This document shows positions 2,831 through 12,872 of a DNA stretch of 25,734 bases, piece by piece. The notes beneath the pieces are model-generated. The model was not told where the DNA came from and searched no databases. It saw only the letters and a program-made list of their open reading frames with translations. Made by a program: the position numbers and the translations under genes. Source of the stretch: a virus; the IMG/VR virus record IMGVR_UViG_3300031456_000017, positions 1 to 25,734 of that record. The stretch is one strand, 5' to 3'. Each line of letters starts with the position of its first letter. The first letter of the stretch is position 1.

Positions 2831-2938
2831 ATGCAGTCAGTCCTCGAATTCGGAGGGTCGGTGATCAACGCGGCCGTCTTCGTCTACCTGGCCGACGAGC
2901 TCACCACGCTCCTACGCACCCTCCGCAGCTACCTGTGA
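2831..2938 (+). CDS. 35-residue hydrophobic protein, unknown function
   Basis: A short gene whose ATG follows a strong GAAGGAGA ribosome site (2816-2823) by 7 bases and whose stop overlaps the next gene's GTG as GTGA. Those two signals are the main reason to believe it. The product starts MQSVLEFGGSVINAAVFVYL. Residues about 10-29 are mostly hydrophobic, though interrupted by Asp and Glu, so it could be a short membrane or amphipathic peptide. The C-terminus carries two Arg (LLRTLRSYL). It has no recognised family. Position between terL and a secreted protein, in the same operon, suggests an envelope-related role (inference). Confidence 0.6.
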   Translation: MQSVLEFGGSVINAAVFVYLADELTTLLRTLRSYL

Positions 2939-3606
2939 AGCGCTGGCTGCTCGGCCCGCTCGTTGTCGTGGCGCTGCTGGCTCTGACCGCCCCCGCGCTG
3001 GCCGGATCCTGGCACCGAGACCACCGTCATGATGATCATGCTCGAGCACATAATGCCTGGTCAGAGGCCCGTTGGGACGACAGCGACGAGTCTGATTACG
3101 ACGATGAGGACAGCTCCGATGATGAGGATTCTGACTCGGAGGACGAAGACTCGGCCGACTCCAGTGACTCCCCGGTGGTGGTCGATCCGGCGCCCGTGGT
3201 CACCGGCTCCGAGAAGAGCATCCAGGCCGAGCTGACCGGCTACTCCTACCAGGACAACACGCCACCCGGCAGCGCGGACATCTGCTGCCCGCAGCTGCAC
3301 CAGAAGGCCGGCGGCCAGGGCACCTACGAGGACCCGATCACGACCGCCGTGGCCTCCAGCTCGTTCCCGCCTGGCACCCGGTTCTACGTCCCGCCGATCA
3401 AGCGCTACGTGATCGTCGAGGACTCGGGCGCCAGCGACGGACAGAACCACCTGGACATCTGGGTCGGCGGCCAGGGACACAGCAAGGGCGACTCCGACGC
3501 CTGCATGAACTCCTTCACCGGCAGCCACCAGATCATCCAGAACCCCGGCCCCGACCACCCTGTCACCGCAGGCGAGCTCACCACGGCCGGCGGATGCAAG
3601 ATCTGA
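2935..3606 (+). CDS. Secreted acidic protein with double-psi beta-barrel-like domain
   Basis: A 223-residue predicted exported protein. Residues 1-23 form a classic signal peptide: KR n-region, Leu/Val core and an ALA|G cleavage site. A His/Arg-rich stretch (27-39) is followed by a very acidic Asp/Ser/Glu tract (about 48-79) and a Pro/Val linker. Residues about 95-223 resemble RlpA/expansin-type double-psi beta-barrels and 3D domains: TGYSYQDNTPPG, AGGQGTYEDPITTAVAS, PPGTRFYVPP, then VEDSG...HLDIWVGG with D163, D168 and D174. Four Cys (117, 118, 190, 221) may form disulfides outside the cell. Some relatives of this fold act on cell wall; others inhibit papain-like proteases. The GTG start overlaps the upstream stop. 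This is not a known packaging or virion protein, so moron-type cargo is likely. Confidence 0.7.
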   Translation: MKRWLLGPLVVVALLALTAPALAGSWHRDHRHDDHARAHNAWSEARWDDSDESDYDDEDSSDDEDSDSEDEDSADSSDSPVVVDPAPVVTGSEKSIQAELTGYSYQDNTPPGSADICCPQLHQKAGGQGTYEDPITTAVASSSFPPGTRFYVPPIKRYVIVEDSGASDGQNHLDIWVGGQGHSKGDSDACMNSFTGSHQIIQNPGPDHPVTAGELTTAGGCKI

Positions 3607-4791: not shown

Positions 4792-6341
4792 CGACGCTGA
4801 GCGGCCTCTCTGAGCTGTCCGAGATCGTGCAGGACGTGCTGCTACCCAAGCACCGCCAGGAGTGCACGCGGCTGCACTGGATCGACCGCTGGTACCGCTG
4901 GAAGCACGAGCCGGTACCGCTGCCCCGCAAGGCGTCGACCGAGCTGCGCGCGCTGGCGAAGCTGTCGCAGACCCCGTGGCTCGGGCTGGTCGTGACCTCG
5001 ACGGCGCAGTGCCTGTTCGTGGACGGCTACCGCAGCGCGCTCGACCCGGTCGGGGACCCGGCGGAGGTCAACGCGCAGTTGCAGCGCAGTCCCGACGACC
5101 CGATCCCGCCGGTGGTGGACAAGCCGATCGTCCCCGAGGGGCCGTGGCGGATCTGGATGGCCAATCAGATGGACAAGCGGCAGGCGGCGCTGCACCGCGC
5201 GGCGCTGGCCTACGGCTACTCCTACTCCACTGTGCTGCCCGGCGAGGACTTCACCGGGGAGGTCATGCCGGTGATCCGGGGCAAGAGCCCCCGCAAGTTC
5301 TACGCCGTCTACGAAGACCCGGCGTTCGACGACTGGCCCGAGTACGCCCTCGAAGAGCTCGACAACGACGGCTCGATCCAGCGGTTTAAGGTGTTCGACG
5401 ACCAGAACGTCTACACCGTGCGGCTGTCCTCGAAGAACAGCACGGGCACCGGCGACAAGCCGCGCTTCGAGCTGGAGGACACCGAGCGGCACGGCGCCGG
5501 AGTCTGTCCCGTGGTGCGCTACGCCAACGAGCTGGATCTCGACGGCAGGACTCCGGGCGAGGTCGAGCCGCACATCGCACTGGCCCGGCGGATCAACAAG
5601 ACCAGCTACGACCGGCTGCTCGTGCAGCACTTCAACAGCTGGAAGATCCGCTGGATCGCGGGCATGGCCGAACCGGACAGCGAGGAGTCGGCAACCCGGG
5701 CGAAGCTGAAGCTCGCGCAGGACGACTTCCTGATCGCGGCCGACGCCGACACCAAGTTCGGCTCGTTCCCGGAGACCGGCCTGGGCGGCTTCATCGAGGC
5801 ACACGAAGCCGACGTCGAAGCGCTCGCCGCCGTCACCCAGACCCCGACGCATGAGCTCACCGGCAAGATGGTCAACCTCTCGGCGGAAGCGCTGGCCGCC
5901 GCGCGCGCGAGCCAGAGCCAGAAGGTCGACGAGCGCAAGCGCAGCTTCGGTGGATCGCACACCCAGTCGCTGCGCCTCGCCAGCTCGTACCTCGGCGATG
6001 AGAAGCACGCCAAGGACATCACTGGCCGGGTGACCTGGCAGGACACCTCGATCCGCTCGATCGCTCAAGCCGTCGATGCGCTGGGCAAGGCCGCGACGAT
6101 GCTGCACGTGCCGGATGAGGCGCTCTGGGGCCGCATCCCCGGCGTCGAGAAGTCCGATGTCGAAGAGTGGAAGCGCATGGCGAAGCTACAGGACCCCCTG
6201 GAGCAGATGCAGTCCAACCTCGATCGACAGGCCGAGGCGCAGAAGCTCGCGTCGAAGGGCGTGCCGGGCGATCAGTCGAGCTCCGCGAACGGCACCGCGC
6301 CGAAGCCGAAGGCGTCTGTCACCGCGAAGCCGGCGGGCTGA
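4788..6341 (+). CDS. Portal protein (SPP1 gp6-like)
   Basis: A 517-residue portal, the dodecameric ring at one capsid vertex through which DNA enters and leaves and to which terminase and connector proteins dock. The N-terminal helical region, the wing segment (PWLGLVVTSTAQCLFVDGYR), the KINKTSYDRLLVQH-type helix around residues 265-290 and the clip/crown pattern VEALAAVTQTPTHELTGK with LSAEALAAARASQSQKVDERK match gp6-like actinophage portals. The C-terminus is charged and low-complexity. GTG 4788 overlaps the upstream stop (GTGA). The stop shares a base with the MuF ATG (TGATG), implying translational coupling and defined stoichiometry. Confidence 0.93.
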   Translation: MTTLSGLSELSEIVQDVLLPKHRQECTRLHWIDRWYRWKHEPVPLPRKASTELRALAKLSQTPWLGLVVTSTAQCLFVDGYRSALDPVGDPAEVNAQLQRSPDDPIPPVVDKPIVPEGPWRIWMANQMDKRQAALHRAALAYGYSYSTVLPGEDFTGEVMPVIRGKSPRKFYAVYEDPAFDDWPEYALEELDNDGSIQRFKVFDDQNVYTVRLSSKNSTGTGDKPRFELEDTERHGAGVCPVVRYANELDLDGRTPGEVEPHIALARRINKTSYDRLLVQHFNSWKIRWIAGMAEPDSEESATRAKLKLAQDDFLIAADADTKFGSFPETGLGGFIEAHEADVEALAAVTQTPTHELTGKMVNLSAEALAAARASQSQKVDERKRSFGGSHTQSLRLASSYLGDEKHAKDITGRVTWQDTSIRSIAQAVDALGKAATMLHVPDEALWGRIPGVEKSDVEEWKRMAKLQDPLEQMQSNLDRQAEAQKLASKGVPGDQSSSANGTAPKPKASVTAKPAG

Positions 6342-7267
6342 TGGCGAGCACCGAGGACGGTCGCCGACTGACCGAGACGCACCGCCTCGCGCAGGTCGAG
6401 CTCCAGGCTCAGTTCCTCCGGGAGTTCATCCCGACGTGGCGGCTGATGAGCTGGGTCAAGATCGACGAGGTGTCGCAGGCCTGGCTCGCGGCGGTCATGC
6501 CGATCATCAGGAAGTGGCGCCAGGAGTCCGCTGACGTCGCGGAATCGTATTACGACCGGTACCGTAAGGTAGAAGTACCACGATCATCTACGACGGCGCC
6601 TCCGGTCGAGTTCCTGCATGCTCCCGAGGTACGTGGTCACCGCGAGCCAGACTCTCCTGTCGTCGACCTCAACGAACGTCGTCGATCACGGACGCGGATC
6701 AGGCTGCCGGAGGACCGGGACCAGAGCGGTTGGGTCACGCCTAAGATCGACTGGTCGCAGTACGACGACTCGGCGCTGAAGGCGCTGCGCGGCGCCGGCC
6801 CGAATTACCTCAAGCAGCAGGCCGGGCGCGGCGAGACCGAGCAGCGCGCCATGGCCAAGGGGCTGCAGGTCGTCTCCGGTACCGGGGTCAAGCAGGTGCT
6901 CGACGGCGGCCGGGACACGATCTTGGAACTGATTCGCTCCGATCCCTCGGTCACCCGCTACATCCGCGTGACCGACGGCGACCCGTGCGCGTTCTGCGCG
7001 ATGCTGGCCAGCCGGGGCCCGGTCTACGAGACCGCCGAGTCGGGCGGCTTCCTCGCGCACCCCTCGTGTGCCTGCACCGCCGAGCCAGTGGTCGTGGCCG
7101 GCGGCGCGTGGCCCGGTCAGGCCGCCTACTACAAGCGACTCTGGCGCGCGAACATCGAGAACCGCTACTCCGGCCGGGACGCGATCAACGCCTGGCGCCG
7201 TCTCTACACCGACCTGCAGCGGGAGACGAAGCGCCAGTCGTTGGCCTCTGACCAGCGGCTGGCTTAG
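6341..7267 (+). CDS. MuF-like minor capsid protein
   Basis: A 308-residue MuF-type protein, usually co-packaged with the portal and in some phages involved in capsid maturation. The N-terminal half is helical; residues about 75-125 form an Arg/Pro-rich linker of lower G+C (about 53% over 6541-6600 by hand count). The conserved C-terminal core carries CAFC (C216, C219) and HPSCAC (H240, C243, C245), a likely zinc-binding cluster typical of actinophage MuF proteins. The ATG at 6341 overlaps the portal stop; longer in-frame extensions run inside portal and are rejected. The stop TAG overlaps the stop of the antisense nuclease gene by 3 bases (tail-to-tail). Confidence 0.88.
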   Translation: MASTEDGRRLTETHRLAQVELQAQFLREFIPTWRLMSWVKIDEVSQAWLAAVMPIIRKWRQESADVAESYYDRYRKVEVPRSSTTAPPVEFLHAPEVRGHREPDSPVVDLNERRRSRTRIRLPEDRDQSGWVTPKIDWSQYDDSALKALRGAGPNYLKQQAGRGETEQRAMAKGLQVVSGTGVKQVLDGGRDTILELIRSDPSVTRYIRVTDGDPCAFCAMLASRGPVYETAESGGFLAHPSCACTAEPVVVAGGAWPGQAAYYKRLWRANIENRYSGRDAINAWRRLYTDLQRETKRQSLASDQRLA

Positions 7268-7887
7268 CACCAGATATGGCGCCGGCAGAACCGCGACTTG
7301 TGGTTGTCGCCGTGCGGGATCGGCACCGGGATGTAGGTGTGATCGTCGCTCGGAGCTGACGCCACCACCGCGCCGGCACAGTTACGGCCGCCCGAATCGA
7401 GGCTGCGCAGGTTGGCCACGTACTCGGGGCTGGCGTCGTTCTTCCCGGCGTACACCGCTGTGTGGTCGTAGGTGACCATCAGCTCGCCGAAGTCACCGCC
7501 AGCGACCCGCACGTAGCGCAGCAGCCGACCATAGCGATCCTTGTCCGGAGCACCCGGCTGCGAGCGCAACGACACGCCATCGGTCAGCAGCAGCTCGGCG
7601 GTCGCCTTGGCCTCCGCGCCGCCGACCGTCGACATCTCGCAGGAGTCGATGCCGAGCACCCGGATCCGCTGACCGGTGTCGATGTCGAACGTGTCGCCGT
7701 CGATCACCTTCGTCACCGTGCGGTTCGCCTCGTCCACGTTGAAGCCGGGCCCGTAGGCGATTCGCTCGGCGGGCGTCATCTCCTGCTCAGCGCTGTGCGC
7801 GGCAACGGATACGACCGGGCGCTCGGAACTGCCGCAGCCGGCGACCACGAAGGCCACCACCGCAACGCCGAGCCACATTTTTCTCAT
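7264..7887 (-). CDS. Staphylococcal-nuclease-like lipoprotein
   Basis: A 207-residue protein on the opposite strand to all its neighbours. The N-terminus MRKMWLGVAVVAFVVAGC is a lipoprotein signal with lipobox VAGC (lipidated C18), so the mature protein should sit on the outer face of the membrane. Residues about 57-165 are a thermonuclease (SNc) domain with all key positions: VIDGDTF (D63), RIRVLGID (R76, D81), E84 and DRYGRLLRYV (R121). It should be a Ca-dependent DNA/RNA nuclease. The His/Cys-rich C-terminus (NHKSRFCRRHIWC) is unusual. Start is ATG at 7887; no Shine-Dalgarno is seen, and CATCCT ends 7 bases upstream, compatible with a weak leaderless promoter. The opposite orientation and non-virion function mark it as a moron. 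Confidence 0.88.
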   Translation of the reverse strand: MRKMWLGVAVVAFVVAGCGSSERPVVSVAAHSAEQEMTPAERIAYGPGFNVDEANRTVTKVIDGDTFDIDTGQRIRVLGIDSCEMSTVGGAEAKATAELLLTDGVSLRSQPGAPDKDRYGRLLRYVRVAGGDFGELMVTYDHTAVYAGKNDASPEYVANLRSLDSGGRNCAGAVVASAPSDDHTYIPVPIPHGDNHKSRFCRRHIWC

Positions 7888-7984
7888 GGCTCGAAGGATG
7901 CCACAGATTGAGGCATTACCACAAGTGTCCCGAGTCACCCGCGTCTCGGGTTGCCCGCAACGGGATGAACAGGGAGAAGCCGCA
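7888..7984. promoter_or_regulatory. Divergent intergenic region between nuclease and scaffold genes
   Basis: This 97-base gap should hold the promoter of the antisense nuclease gene. It contains two adjacent dyads, CCCGAG (7929-7934)/CTCGGG (7945-7950) and CCCG (7954-7957)/CGGG (7961-7964), neither followed by a T-run. On the minus strand TTGTGG and CATCCT are 18 bases apart and end 7 bases before the ATG: a weak promoter match. The AGGGAGAAG ribosome site of scaffold is at 7971-7979. Confidence 0.35.
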
Positions 7985-8599
7985 ATGGCTGAGCGCGACG
8001 AGAACGACAGCACCGAGAACGACGGCACCAAGGACGAAGGCACCGACAGCAAGACTGGCACCGCCGCTGGTTCGAACGGCGACGGCGCTGGCACCGAAGG
8101 CACGGGAGCGGCGGGCGGGTCCGGAACGGATGACGTCAAGGTCGATACCGAGGCCGAGAAGTGGAAGAAGCTGTCCCGCCAGAACGAGAAGAACCTGCGT
8201 GACGCACAGAAGAAGATCGACGAGTTCGAGAACAAAGCTCTGACCGAGTCGCAGCGCCTGGAAAAGGAGCGCGACGGGTACAGGAGTACCGCCGAATCGG
8301 CATCCTCGCAGCTCAAGCACATGAACGTCGCCATCGAGCACGCACCGGAGCACGCCACGCTCGCCCAGCTGCGCAAAGTAGCGAAGCGGCTACGCGGAGA
8401 CTCCGATGACGATCTTGAGGCAGACGCCAAGGAACTCTGGGCCGACTTCGCGCCCGCTCCCAGTTCCGAGGGCGCTCCGAAGTCTGGATCCGTTGTCGGC
8501 AAGCCCAAGGAACGACTCAAGGGCGGCGCGGACCCCGACGAAGCCGTCGATGAGATGAACCCCGCGAAGATCGTGGCGAACATCCCAAGGGCGCGCTGA
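7985..8599 (+). CDS. Capsid scaffolding protein
   Basis: A 204-residue acidic, low-complexity protein placed directly before the major capsid gene. Residues 1-52 are rich in Asp/Glu/Thr/Gly; about 53-115 form a strong coiled coil (EKWKKLSRQNEKNLRDAQKK and following heptads). The C-terminal part ends in a basic/acid mix with DEMNPAKIVANIPRAR, likely the coat-binding tail. This layout is typical of siphovirus scaffolds, which guide coat assembly and then leave the prohead. ATG 7985 has a strong AGGGAGAAG site. An in-frame ATG at 7886 exists but lacks a ribosome site and would cross the divergent promoter region. Confidence 0.88.
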   Translation: MAERDENDSTENDGTKDEGTDSKTGTAAGSNGDGAGTEGTGAAGGSGTDDVKVDTEAEKWKKLSRQNEKNLRDAQKKIDEFENKALTESQRLEKERDGYRSTAESASSQLKHMNVAIEHAPEHATLAQLRKVAKRLRGDSDDDLEADAKELWADFAPAPSSEGAPKSGSVVGKPKERLKGGADPDEAVDEMNPAKIVANIPRAR

Positions 8600-8670: not shown

Positions 8671-9924
8671 GTGGCTAACAGCTACCTGAAGGCAGAGAAG
8701 ATCGCGGCCACCGCGCTCGGCCTTCTGCAGCGCGAGATCGTGCTGCCCGGACTCGTGTGGAAGGACGCCGGCGGTTCGTTCGTCGGTGCCGCCGGCGACA
8801 CGATCACCATGCGCGTGCCCGCCCGTACGCAGGCCCGCTCCCGCACGCTGCGGGGCGCTCGCGGACTCGCGTCCGAGGGCACCGGCATCATCCAGATGGA
8901 TGAACTGACCGAGCACAGCGTCGACGTGACGCTGGACGAGGCCATCTACTCCGCGATCCCGGTCACCGATGAGGAGCTCACGCTCGACATCAACGACTTC
9001 GCGGCACAGATCCTCGCTCCGCAGGTGCGTGCCGTCGCCGAGGGCCTGGAGAACAAGCTGGCCGCCGAGATGGTGGGCGCCACCTACGCCAACACGGTGA
9101 CCATCCCCCGCGCCAAGCTGGCCGGCACCAACACCGACAGCTCGAACACCTACGACGTGTTCCGTGGACTGGCCCAGGTCCGCAAGTACATGAACGTCTC
9201 CAACCTGCCGCAGAACGACCGCATCATCGTGGTCGGGGCGGACATGGAGGAAGCGTTTTTGAACGACCCGCACCTGAACCGCTTCGATGGTTCCGGTGAC
9301 TCGGGCCCCGGCTCGGCGCTGCGGGACGCGACCCTCGGACGCATCGCCGGCTTCAACCAGGTGATCGTCAGCAACGCACTGCCGGCCGCCTTCGGTGTCG
9401 CGTTCCACCGCACCGCCTTCGTGCTGAACCTCCAGGCTCCGGTTGTTCCGAGCGGCGTGCCGTTCGGCTCGAACCAGAGCTTCGAGGGTCTGGCGATGCG
9501 GTACATCAGGGACTACGACTTCCGGAACGTGCAGGACCGGGGCATGGTCGACCTGTACTGCGGCACCAACACCGTCGTTGACGGCCTGGTGTCCGAGGTT
9601 CAGACCCTGACCCCGACCGGCACGATCTCGGGTGGCACCTTCACCCTGACTTGCCGTGGGTACACCACGTCGGCGCTGCCTTTCAACGCCACCGCCGCTG
9701 CCATCGCCGCCGCGCTGAGCGCCCTCCCGGGTGTCTTCGCCACGGCGACCGGTGGGCCGATCAGCACCACGGCGGTCGTGGTCACGTTCACCGACTCTGG
9801 CGATGTTGCCCAGCTGGTTGTGAACAGCTCCCTGACCGGCACCTCGCCGGTCGTCACGCCCACCACCACCACGAGCGGCGCGCCCACCTTCGTGCGGGCC
9901 ATCAAGCTGGCTCTGGCTGCCTGA
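8671..9924 (+). CDS. Major capsid protein (P22-coat type) with C-terminal decoration-like domain
   Basis: A 417-residue coat protein. Residues 1 to about 305 match the P22 coat/gene 5 family of HK97-fold proteins: N-terminal helix (KAEKIAATALGLLQREIVLP), TITMRVPARTQARSRTLRG, VDVTLDEAIYSAIPVTDEE, then a spine-like helix and the A-domain region with FRNVQDRGMVDLYCGT. From E309 on, a separate beta-rich domain begins (EVQTLTPTG, GGTFTLT, FNATAAAIAAAL, VVVTFTDSG, TTTTSG); the same domain ends the tail tube protein. GTG 8671 follows CTAGGAGG by 8 bases. A strong hairpin follows the stop. Confidence 0.92.
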   Translation: MANSYLKAEKIAATALGLLQREIVLPGLVWKDAGGSFVGAAGDTITMRVPARTQARSRTLRGARGLASEGTGIIQMDELTEHSVDVTLDEAIYSAIPVTDEELTLDINDFAAQILAPQVRAVAEGLENKLAAEMVGATYANTVTIPRAKLAGTNTDSSNTYDVFRGLAQVRKYMNVSNLPQNDRIIVVGADMEEAFLNDPHLNRFDGSGDSGPGSALRDATLGRIAGFNQVIVSNALPAAFGVAFHRTAFVLNLQAPVVPSGVPFGSNQSFEGLAMRYIRDYDFRNVQDRGMVDLYCGTNTVVDGLVSEVQTLTPTGTISGGTFTLTCRGYTTSALPFNATAAAIAAALSALPGVFATATGGPISTTAVVVTFTDSGDVAQLVVNSSLTGTSPVVTPTTTTSGAPTFVRAIKLALAA

Positions 9925-11951: not shown

Positions 11952-12014
11952 TCCATCCATCCGACCCGGTGCCGCGCTCTCCGGGATGTGTCTGCTCCCC
12001 TGAGAGGACTGACC

Positions 12015-12872
12015 ATGGCTCTCGATGATGCCGCAGTCATCATCCCCGGTACCGGTTACGTGTTCGTCGCGCCGGCCGGAACCGCTGCCCCCGCAAGCAA
12101 GACCGACCCCGGCTCCCCGTGGCGCGATCTCGGCCACACGTCGATTGACGACGGTCTGACGATCACCAAGGACGGTGGCGACAGCAACATCCTCGGCACC
12201 TGGCGTAACCCGGCCCTCCGGGACCGCCGCGACCCGGTGGTGTTCGCCCTGACGATCCACCTGCTGCAGCTGTCCAACGACACGCTGAGCATGTACTTCG
12301 GCGTCGGCGACACCACGGTCGACGGGGTGTTCGGTGTCGCGCTGATCCCGACCCCGGTCGAGCTGGCGATGTTCGTCCGCATCGTCGATGGCGCCAACGA
12401 GATGCAGGTCTACCTGCCCAAGGTCTCGGTCGGCTCCGATGACGACGTCGAGGTCGATGTCGAGAACTTCCTCGCCTTCCCGGTGCGCGCCACGATCCTG
12501 GGCATCACCGGTTCGGCGCTGATGGAGTTCTACGGCGACGACCTGGGCCTGCGTACCGCCGAGGTGCAGTCACTGGCCATCACCGGCGTCCCCACCGGCG
12601 GCACGTTCACGCTGACCCTCGACGGCGACACCACGGCGGCCATCGCCTACAACGCGGCGGCCTCGGCTGTGCAGTCCGCGCTGCGGCTCCTGGACACCCC
12701 GTTCGCCGACGGCGTCGTCTGCTCCGGCGGCGCGCTGCCGGCAGTCCCGGTCGTGATCACGTTCGCTGCCGATCTGGCGGACAACAACGCGCCGTTGATG
12801 ACCGCGACCGGTTCCTTCACCGGTGGCACCTCCCCGGCCGCTGCGGTCACCACGACCACGCCCGGCTCCTGA
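12015..12872 (+). CDS. Major tail (tube) protein with C-terminal decoration-like domain
   Basis: A 285-residue tube protein that polymerises around the tape measure. Residues 1 to about 178 form the tube core (GTGYVFVAPAGTAAP, WRDLGHTSIDDGLTITKDGG, ALTIHLLQLSNDTLSMYFG, MQVYLPKVSVGSDDDVEVDV, FPVRATILGITGSALMEFYG), a standard actinophage tube pattern. Residues 183-285 are an added beta domain (EVQSLAITGVPTGGTFTLT, IAYNAAASAVQSALRLL, PVVITFAADLADN, TTTTPGS), homologous to the end of the capsid protein. ATG 12015 follows GAGAGGA (12002-12008). A 13-bp perfect hairpin follows the stop. Confidence 0.9.
   Translation: MALDDAAVIIPGTGYVFVAPAGTAAPASKTDPGSPWRDLGHTSIDDGLTITKDGGDSNILGTWRNPALRDRRDPVVFALTIHLLQLSNDTLSMYFGVGDTTVDGVFGVALIPTPVELAMFVRIVDGANEMQVYLPKVSVGSDDDVEVDVENFLAFPVRATILGITGSALMEFYGDDLGLRTAEVQSLAITGVPTGGTFTLTLDGDTTAAIAYNAAASAVQSALRLLDTPFADGVVCSGGALPAVPVVITFAADLADNNAPLMTATGSFTGGTSPAAAVTTTTPGS

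Follow-up and report, generated by a model that had tools for sequence, protein, structure and literature searches.

A putative exported nuclease gene in an antisense slot of the head operon of uncultivated actinobacteriophages

What does a nuclease gene do on the opposite strand of a phage head operon, and does it belong there? The question is posed by an IMG/VR virus record, 25,734 bases long, that is called the window here. The gene, P0001, lies among those for portal, MuF, scaffold, and a coat protein like that of P22 (Table 1). Judged by its sequence, P0001 is a real and conserved phage nuclease gene with export signals, of a kind (mobile-element-encoded secreted nuclease, or moron) that is already known. 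The less expected parts of the finding are the exchangeable antisense slot in which it lies and the Cys tail that its product shares with other proteins.

Table 1. Coordinates of features at the nuclease locus of the window.
Feature	Position	Strand	Basis or remark
MuF-like head maturation protein, convergent neighbour	6341..7267	+	phrog_193, E = 7e-52
Interlocked stops TTAG (MuF TAG on +, SNase TAA on -)	7264..7267	.	sequence
Putative exported SNase-domain lipoprotein gene P0001, 207 aa	7264..7887	-	sequence, Pfam, PHROG, PDB, and Foldseek matches
C-terminal Cys/basic tail NHKSRFCRRHIWC	7264..7305	-	same motif on other apparently exported actinobacterial/actinophage proteins
SNase core, ~residues 56-165	7393..7722	-	holds D63, D65, R76, D81, S82, E84, R121, and conserved C83
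Predicted signal peptide with lipobox VAG-C18, residues 1-18	7834..7887	-	sequence
Promoter-like motif GCCTCAANNTGTGGCAT, overlapping CATCCT -10-like element, ATG 7 nt on	7898..7914	-	sequence; exact copies in closest relative
Head scaffolding protein, divergent neighbour	7985..8599	+	phrog_1793, E = 2e-7
Major head protein, P22-coat-like	8671..9924	+	Pfam and PHROG searches

The nuclease and its export signals

P0001 consists, in order, of a short basic N-terminus, a hydrophobic segment, the lipobox VAG-C18, an SNase domain, and a Cys/basic tail ending in CRRHIWC. Aligned with staphylococcal nuclease, D63 corresponds to D19, D65 to D21, R76 to R35, D81 to D40, E84 to E43, and R121 to R87, and S82 stands at the position of T41, a conservative change. 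The catalytic set D65, R76, D81, S82, E84, and R121, together with D63, was invariant across nine homologues. This bears out the preliminary description of an intact active site (D63, R76, D81, E84, R121), with the amendment that the metal ligand D65 (D21) was missing from its list and that D63 is the counterpart of D19. Two further residues, C83 and C170, the latter just past the SNase core, were likewise invariant, which would fit disulphide bonding outside the cytoplasm.

The Pfam SNase match (18.8 bits) fell under the 21-bit cutoff; PHROG nuclease families matched P0001 at E = 2e-10, and the family profile aligned with staphylococcal nuclease in the PDB (E = 8e-8). In the AF2 model the core was mostly at pLDDT 85-94 (68.9 overall), and all 50 Foldseek matches shown for this model were SNases, the best at E ~1e-8 with a TM score (target) of ~0.7. 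Catalytic residues and a predicted OB-fold core place P0001 in the staphylococcal nuclease superfamily. With the staphylococcal nuclease/thermonuclease family itself (PF00565, PDB 1SNC; Foldseek E ~1e-8, ~25% identity) it shares the OB-fold core and the full catalytic set, but it differs in the Ser at T41, a conserved Cys at P42, the extra C170, the Cys tail, and in being phage-borne. Its codon-position GC was in line with other window genes. Megablast found no close relatives among cultured phages, and protein matches were only to distant thermonucleases. The thermonucleases of Aeribacillus phage AP45 and Anoxybacillus phage A403, both phages with integrase and repressor genes, likewise combine a TM/linker region with an SNase domain, but are encoded near integrase and repressor, carry a C-terminal excalibur-like domain, and are ~30% identical.

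A lipobox ([LVI][ASTVI][GAS]C within the N-terminal signal), the mark of a bacterial lipoprotein, was present in the window protein (VAG-C18), for which lipidation is predicted, and in two relatives, L002 (LVSC) and L004 (LTGC). The remaining seven of the ten nucleases found at this position have other signal or TM types, and by inspection all ten begin with a signal peptide or an N-terminal TM segment. Export thus appears to be conserved but lipidation does not, so the lipobox-anchored nuclease described earlier holds for the window protein and not for the family.

The antisense slot and its occupants

Homologues of P0001 were found in nine other IMG/VR contigs (L002-L008, L019 (= L094), and L093) at 44-83% identity, and 9/9 have the nuclease on the opposite strand, between MuF and scaffold. 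L095 and L096, also viral homologues, are not part of any such head module. Across the clade, an antisense gene occupied this slot in 17 distinct contigs, ten with the nuclease and seven with non-nuclease cargo: an anchor, linker, and the same Cys tail without SNase in L010 (whose MuF is 75% identical to that of the window) and L011/L012, an anchor only in L016, small membrane proteins in L013-L015, and an anchored Rv1352/Rv1906c domain in L021. Because these seven relatives hold other membrane or exported proteins at the same position, we regard it as a clade-specific slot for apparently exported cargo, with the nuclease as its commonest occupant. Given the range of cargo, the position may serve genes that modify the surface of the infected host, and the nuclease may be dispensable for phage growth, since L010, L011, and other slot relatives do without SNase.

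The stop codons of SNase (TAA, 7264-7266) and MuF (TAG, 7265-7267) overlap as TTAG, as had been reported, and an identical 4-nt overlap was found in 14 of the 17 slot genes. In a survey of MuF relatives, the MuF-to-MCP distance exceeded 1000 nt in the slot clade vs. ~590-855 nt in the others. L018/L022, L020, and L023 have a small rightward gene in place of the antisense one, and no antisense gene was present at the slot in four cultured relatives. The slot gene is thus inserted between conserved genes and absent from relatives, as expected of a moron. The moron-like antisense position between MuF and scaffold proposed in the preliminary description therefore stands, but the gene is fixed in the clade and is not a recent insertion. 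What emerges is that a phage clade appears to use one constant place, antisense within the head operon, to keep and exchange exported host-modifying genes.

Between the window and its closest relative, L002, dN/dS was 0.153 for the nuclease, 0.154 for MCP, 0.219 for MuF, 0.247 for portal, and 0.340 for scaffold; purifying selection on the nuclease equals that on the major capsid protein in this comparison. The L006-L007 pair gave a nuclease dN/dS of 0.90 at low divergence, which indicates weak constraint, and constraint on the slot nuclease may vary among members. Since relatives such as L010 and L011/L012 retain anchor and tail without the nuclease, and L016 the anchor alone, the nuclease could be passenger cargo, with selection acting on the anchor/tail platform, e.g. 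for envelope remodelling. We consider this improbable: slot genes that have SNase show invariant residues in the active site and a low dN/dS, and the slot nuclease of L005 has the SNase domain but no tail.

The search for cellular homologues covered 84,980 species, with one genome per species. Its 18 top-ranking loci (L097-L114) all came from Actinomycetospora or Pseudonocardia, save one Acidobacteria MAG, and after them the E-value dropped from 2e-24 to 9e-18. These putatively exported SNases share with the phage proteins the LGIDSCE signature, a lipobox (in many) or signal anchor, a low-complexity linker and, in some, a YCARKWWC tail; they differ in that their retrieved flanks hold no phage head genes and that several have an excalibur-like domain at the C-terminus in place of the tail. 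In the tree, phage and cellular copies are intermingled, without support. Multiple independent acquisitions of the slot nuclease were considered and not adopted, the tree lacking resolution and a single origin not being rejected (p-AU = 0.347). The clade is one of uncultivated actinobacteriophages, the window phage is placed with soil actinobacteria, and a Pseudonocardiaceae host for the slot-clade phages can reasonably be supposed. In a search for Pseudonocardiaceae prophages with the slot, 64/297 genomes had a related portal, and none of the 11 head regions read had an occupied slot.

The exported SNases of Actinomycetospora and Pseudonocardia, many of them lipoproteins, are the nearest cellular relatives of P0001, as would be expected had a host lipoprotein gene been captured recently and by chance, with no role for the phage. 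Such a capture is highly improbable: it is contradicted by the slot survey, with the gene at one position in ten contigs at 44-83% identity and a conserved stop overlap, by the strong purifying selection seen in dN/dS, and by the slot nucleases' single origin not being rejected (p-AU 0.35).

Upstream motif and C-terminal tail

Upstream of the start codon, the window and L002 have a block in common, GCCTCAANNTGTGGCAT leading into CATnCT, and the ATG follows 7 nt on, an arrangement from which the nuclease mRNA would be predicted to start leaderless. The record of L002 (G001) contains three exact copies of GCCTCAANNTGTGGCAT vs. 7e-5 expected, at the nuclease gene, upstream of a pair of genes for a membrane protein and a lipoprotein, and upstream of a gene for a small protein of 71 aa; L004 has a version with 3 mismatches. 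Because the motif recurs before the membrane protein/lipoprotein pair, the data are consistent with control of the nuclease independently of the head operon. As to the expected promoter of its own, the gene has a promoter-like sequence. A scan found no standard sigma-70 promoter at the nuclease gene, the motif being off the consensus, and no useful terminator at its 3' end. The slot promoters of L012, L013, and L015 showed no clear recurrence in their own genomes. As a strict dyad operator the motif is weak (16, 14, 12, and 10 of 19 symmetric positions), and it is therefore termed promoter-like only. Nor did it behave as a widely shared operator, its occurrence in 57 IMG/VR contigs being about the chance level. 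The extra copies in G001, at 36027 (-) and 40591 (+), outline a small putative regulon of the membrane protein/lipoprotein pair and the 71-aa protein, which is possibly DNA-binding.

The tail motif (F/Y)CxR(R/K/H)xWC is so far confined to proteins of actinobacteria and actinophages that appear to be exported. When 200 Pseudonocardiaceae and 297 class-level genomes were screened with a degenerate DNA pattern, ten distinct proteins with a true stop came out, all with lipobox, signal, or TM N-termini (by eye) and with SNase, PASTA-like, or linker-only bodies; this is a small sample in which export was read off the sequence and not called with a predictor, and several SNase members are mutually related. 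Two other matches, L211 and L212, look like chance. Tails on differing architectures (SNase, PASTA-like, linker-only) occur at window 7264-7305, L010:4682-4969, L011:4603-4989, and L214:2288-2560, and in L219, L227, and L235.

The tail of L093 matched DUF7199/phrog_439 at 5e-5, the window itself only at 0.03 and 0.007. A 23-aa tail query gave weak matches, the best at ~8e-3, in ~700 Mycobacterium phage records, and the two proteins examined among these were small with signal-like or TM N-termini. Small secreted proteins of Mycobacterium cluster A phages (DUF7199/phrog_439) have a very similar tail, e.g. GKSRFCRKHWFC in Puppy gp80; they differ in having no nuclease domain and in belonging to leftward genes near the immunity repressor. 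RefSeq names these cluster A proteins (L214:2288-2560, L215:1312-1584) 'recombination directionality factor', a doubtful label given the signal-peptide-like N-terminus of the sequence examined.

We tentatively propose, as a possibility that we hold with considerable doubt, that the slot proteins are modular (anchor, exchangeable domain, Cys tail) and that (F/Y)CxR(R/K/H)xWC-COOH acts as a signal, so far undescribed, for surface retention or wall binding. Both exported proteins of actinobacteria (SNase, PASTA-like) and proteins of actinophages would have it, among the latter small secreted ones of several hundred Mycobacterium phages, and phages might thereby equip the host surface with nucleases and other cargo that are regulated together. 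The shared tail offers a way into the many secreted proteins of actinophages that are still uncharacterised.

Possible roles of the nuclease

We hypothesize, at about an even chance, that P0001 is an accessory gene of the lysogenic-conversion type, whose tethered nuclease would destroy DNA at the host surface. This reading is favoured because the SNase residues are complete, the fold is that of an SNase, export signals are present, the slot is conserved, dN/dS is low, the promoter-like motif recurs, and relatives without SNase have membrane or exported cargo. The gene would be transcribed leftward from its own promoter, probably while the rightward late operon is silent; late transcripts heading for scaffold and capsid would read through it in antisense. 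Its product would be exported and lipidated at C18, and its Ca-dependent SNase domain would be held outside the cytoplasmic membrane. There it could degrade DNA that reaches the host surface or is set free close to it. In this way it may keep foreign DNA from being taken up (by transformation, possibly also as rival genomes) and allow nucleotides to be recycled. Catalysis, timing, a temperate lifestyle, and a benefit of the nuclease are all what we infer.

Against lysogenic conversion stand the lack of an integrase in the L002 record, the absence of a slot prophage from the 11 head regions, the non-sigma-70 motif, and the L006-L007 dN/dS of 0.90. No lysogeny genes were recognised in the window, which is a structural-gene fragment, and the 53.7 kb record of L002 gave no integrase match to PF00589 or PF00239; within the slot clade a serine recombinase occurred only in the record of L015 (G004), whose slot cargo is not a nuclease. 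To our knowledge, natural competence is not established for Pseudonocardiaceae hosts, which also counts against this reading.

Prophage-borne Dns, Dns2, Dns3, and YokF and the ICE-borne IdeA lower transformation (PMC4774983, PMC10893306), and the reductions by prophage- or ICE-borne DNases amount to one to three orders of magnitude (PMC4774983). The Campylobacter Dns proteins are prophage-borne DNases that act on exogenous DNA (PMC10893306). Campylobacter Dns/Dns2/Dns3, B. subtilis YokF, and V. cholerae IdeA are, like P0001, mobile-element-borne DNases, but they belong to other hosts and other element positions, and the likeness rests on analogy. In prophages, a gene lying antisense to the lytic genes is typically an accessory locus (PMC7067206). 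The TM/SNase/excalibur-like genes of the Aeribacillus and Anoxybacillus phages, with repressor and integrase close by, are a further precedent for the favoured reading.

A tethered nuclease might also cut competing phage genomes as they cross wall and membrane. Surface location and a DNA substrate would fit such superinfection exclusion, and the slot cargo of relatives includes small membrane proteins, a sort often used for it. We nevertheless hold it unlikely. Phage DNA normally enters through tail and channel, where it is little exposed, the only PADLOC match was a generic SNase+LTD model, and a literature search yielded no direct experimental precedent for an SNase lipoprotein in this role. 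Destroying exogenous DNA and blocking transformation, not exclusion, is the best-documented role of secreted prophage DNases (PMC4774983, PMC10893306).

A role in the lytic cycle is conceivable as well, by nucleotide scavenging or by clearing host or extracellular DNA around infected or lysing cells, which would ease the spread of virions. SNases are robust extracellular DNases, and the gene is kept under capsid-like constraint in phages that may not be temperate. The antisense position in the late operon disfavours late expression, however, and a lysis product needs no membrane anchor; we consider this role quite unlikely. If the function favoured here, destruction of DNA at the host surface, were confirmed, it would tie actinophages to how DNA uptake or competition between phages is controlled at the cell surface.

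Some other genes drew attention. Between terminase and portal (window 2935-3606) lies a gene for a secreted-looking protein of 223 aa with an acidic linker and a weak 3D-domain match, conserved in L002 and L004 (53-75%). G001 has, at 39036-40586 (L242:3036-4586), a second ORF that resembles a terminase large subunit (phrog_38) and differs from the terminase beside the portal, which is of the phrog_9 type. Finally, the major capsid and major tail (11988-12872) proteins of the window have a homologous C-terminal domain (~45-53% identity in cross-matches), and the capsid copy of this domain matches PHROG tail families.
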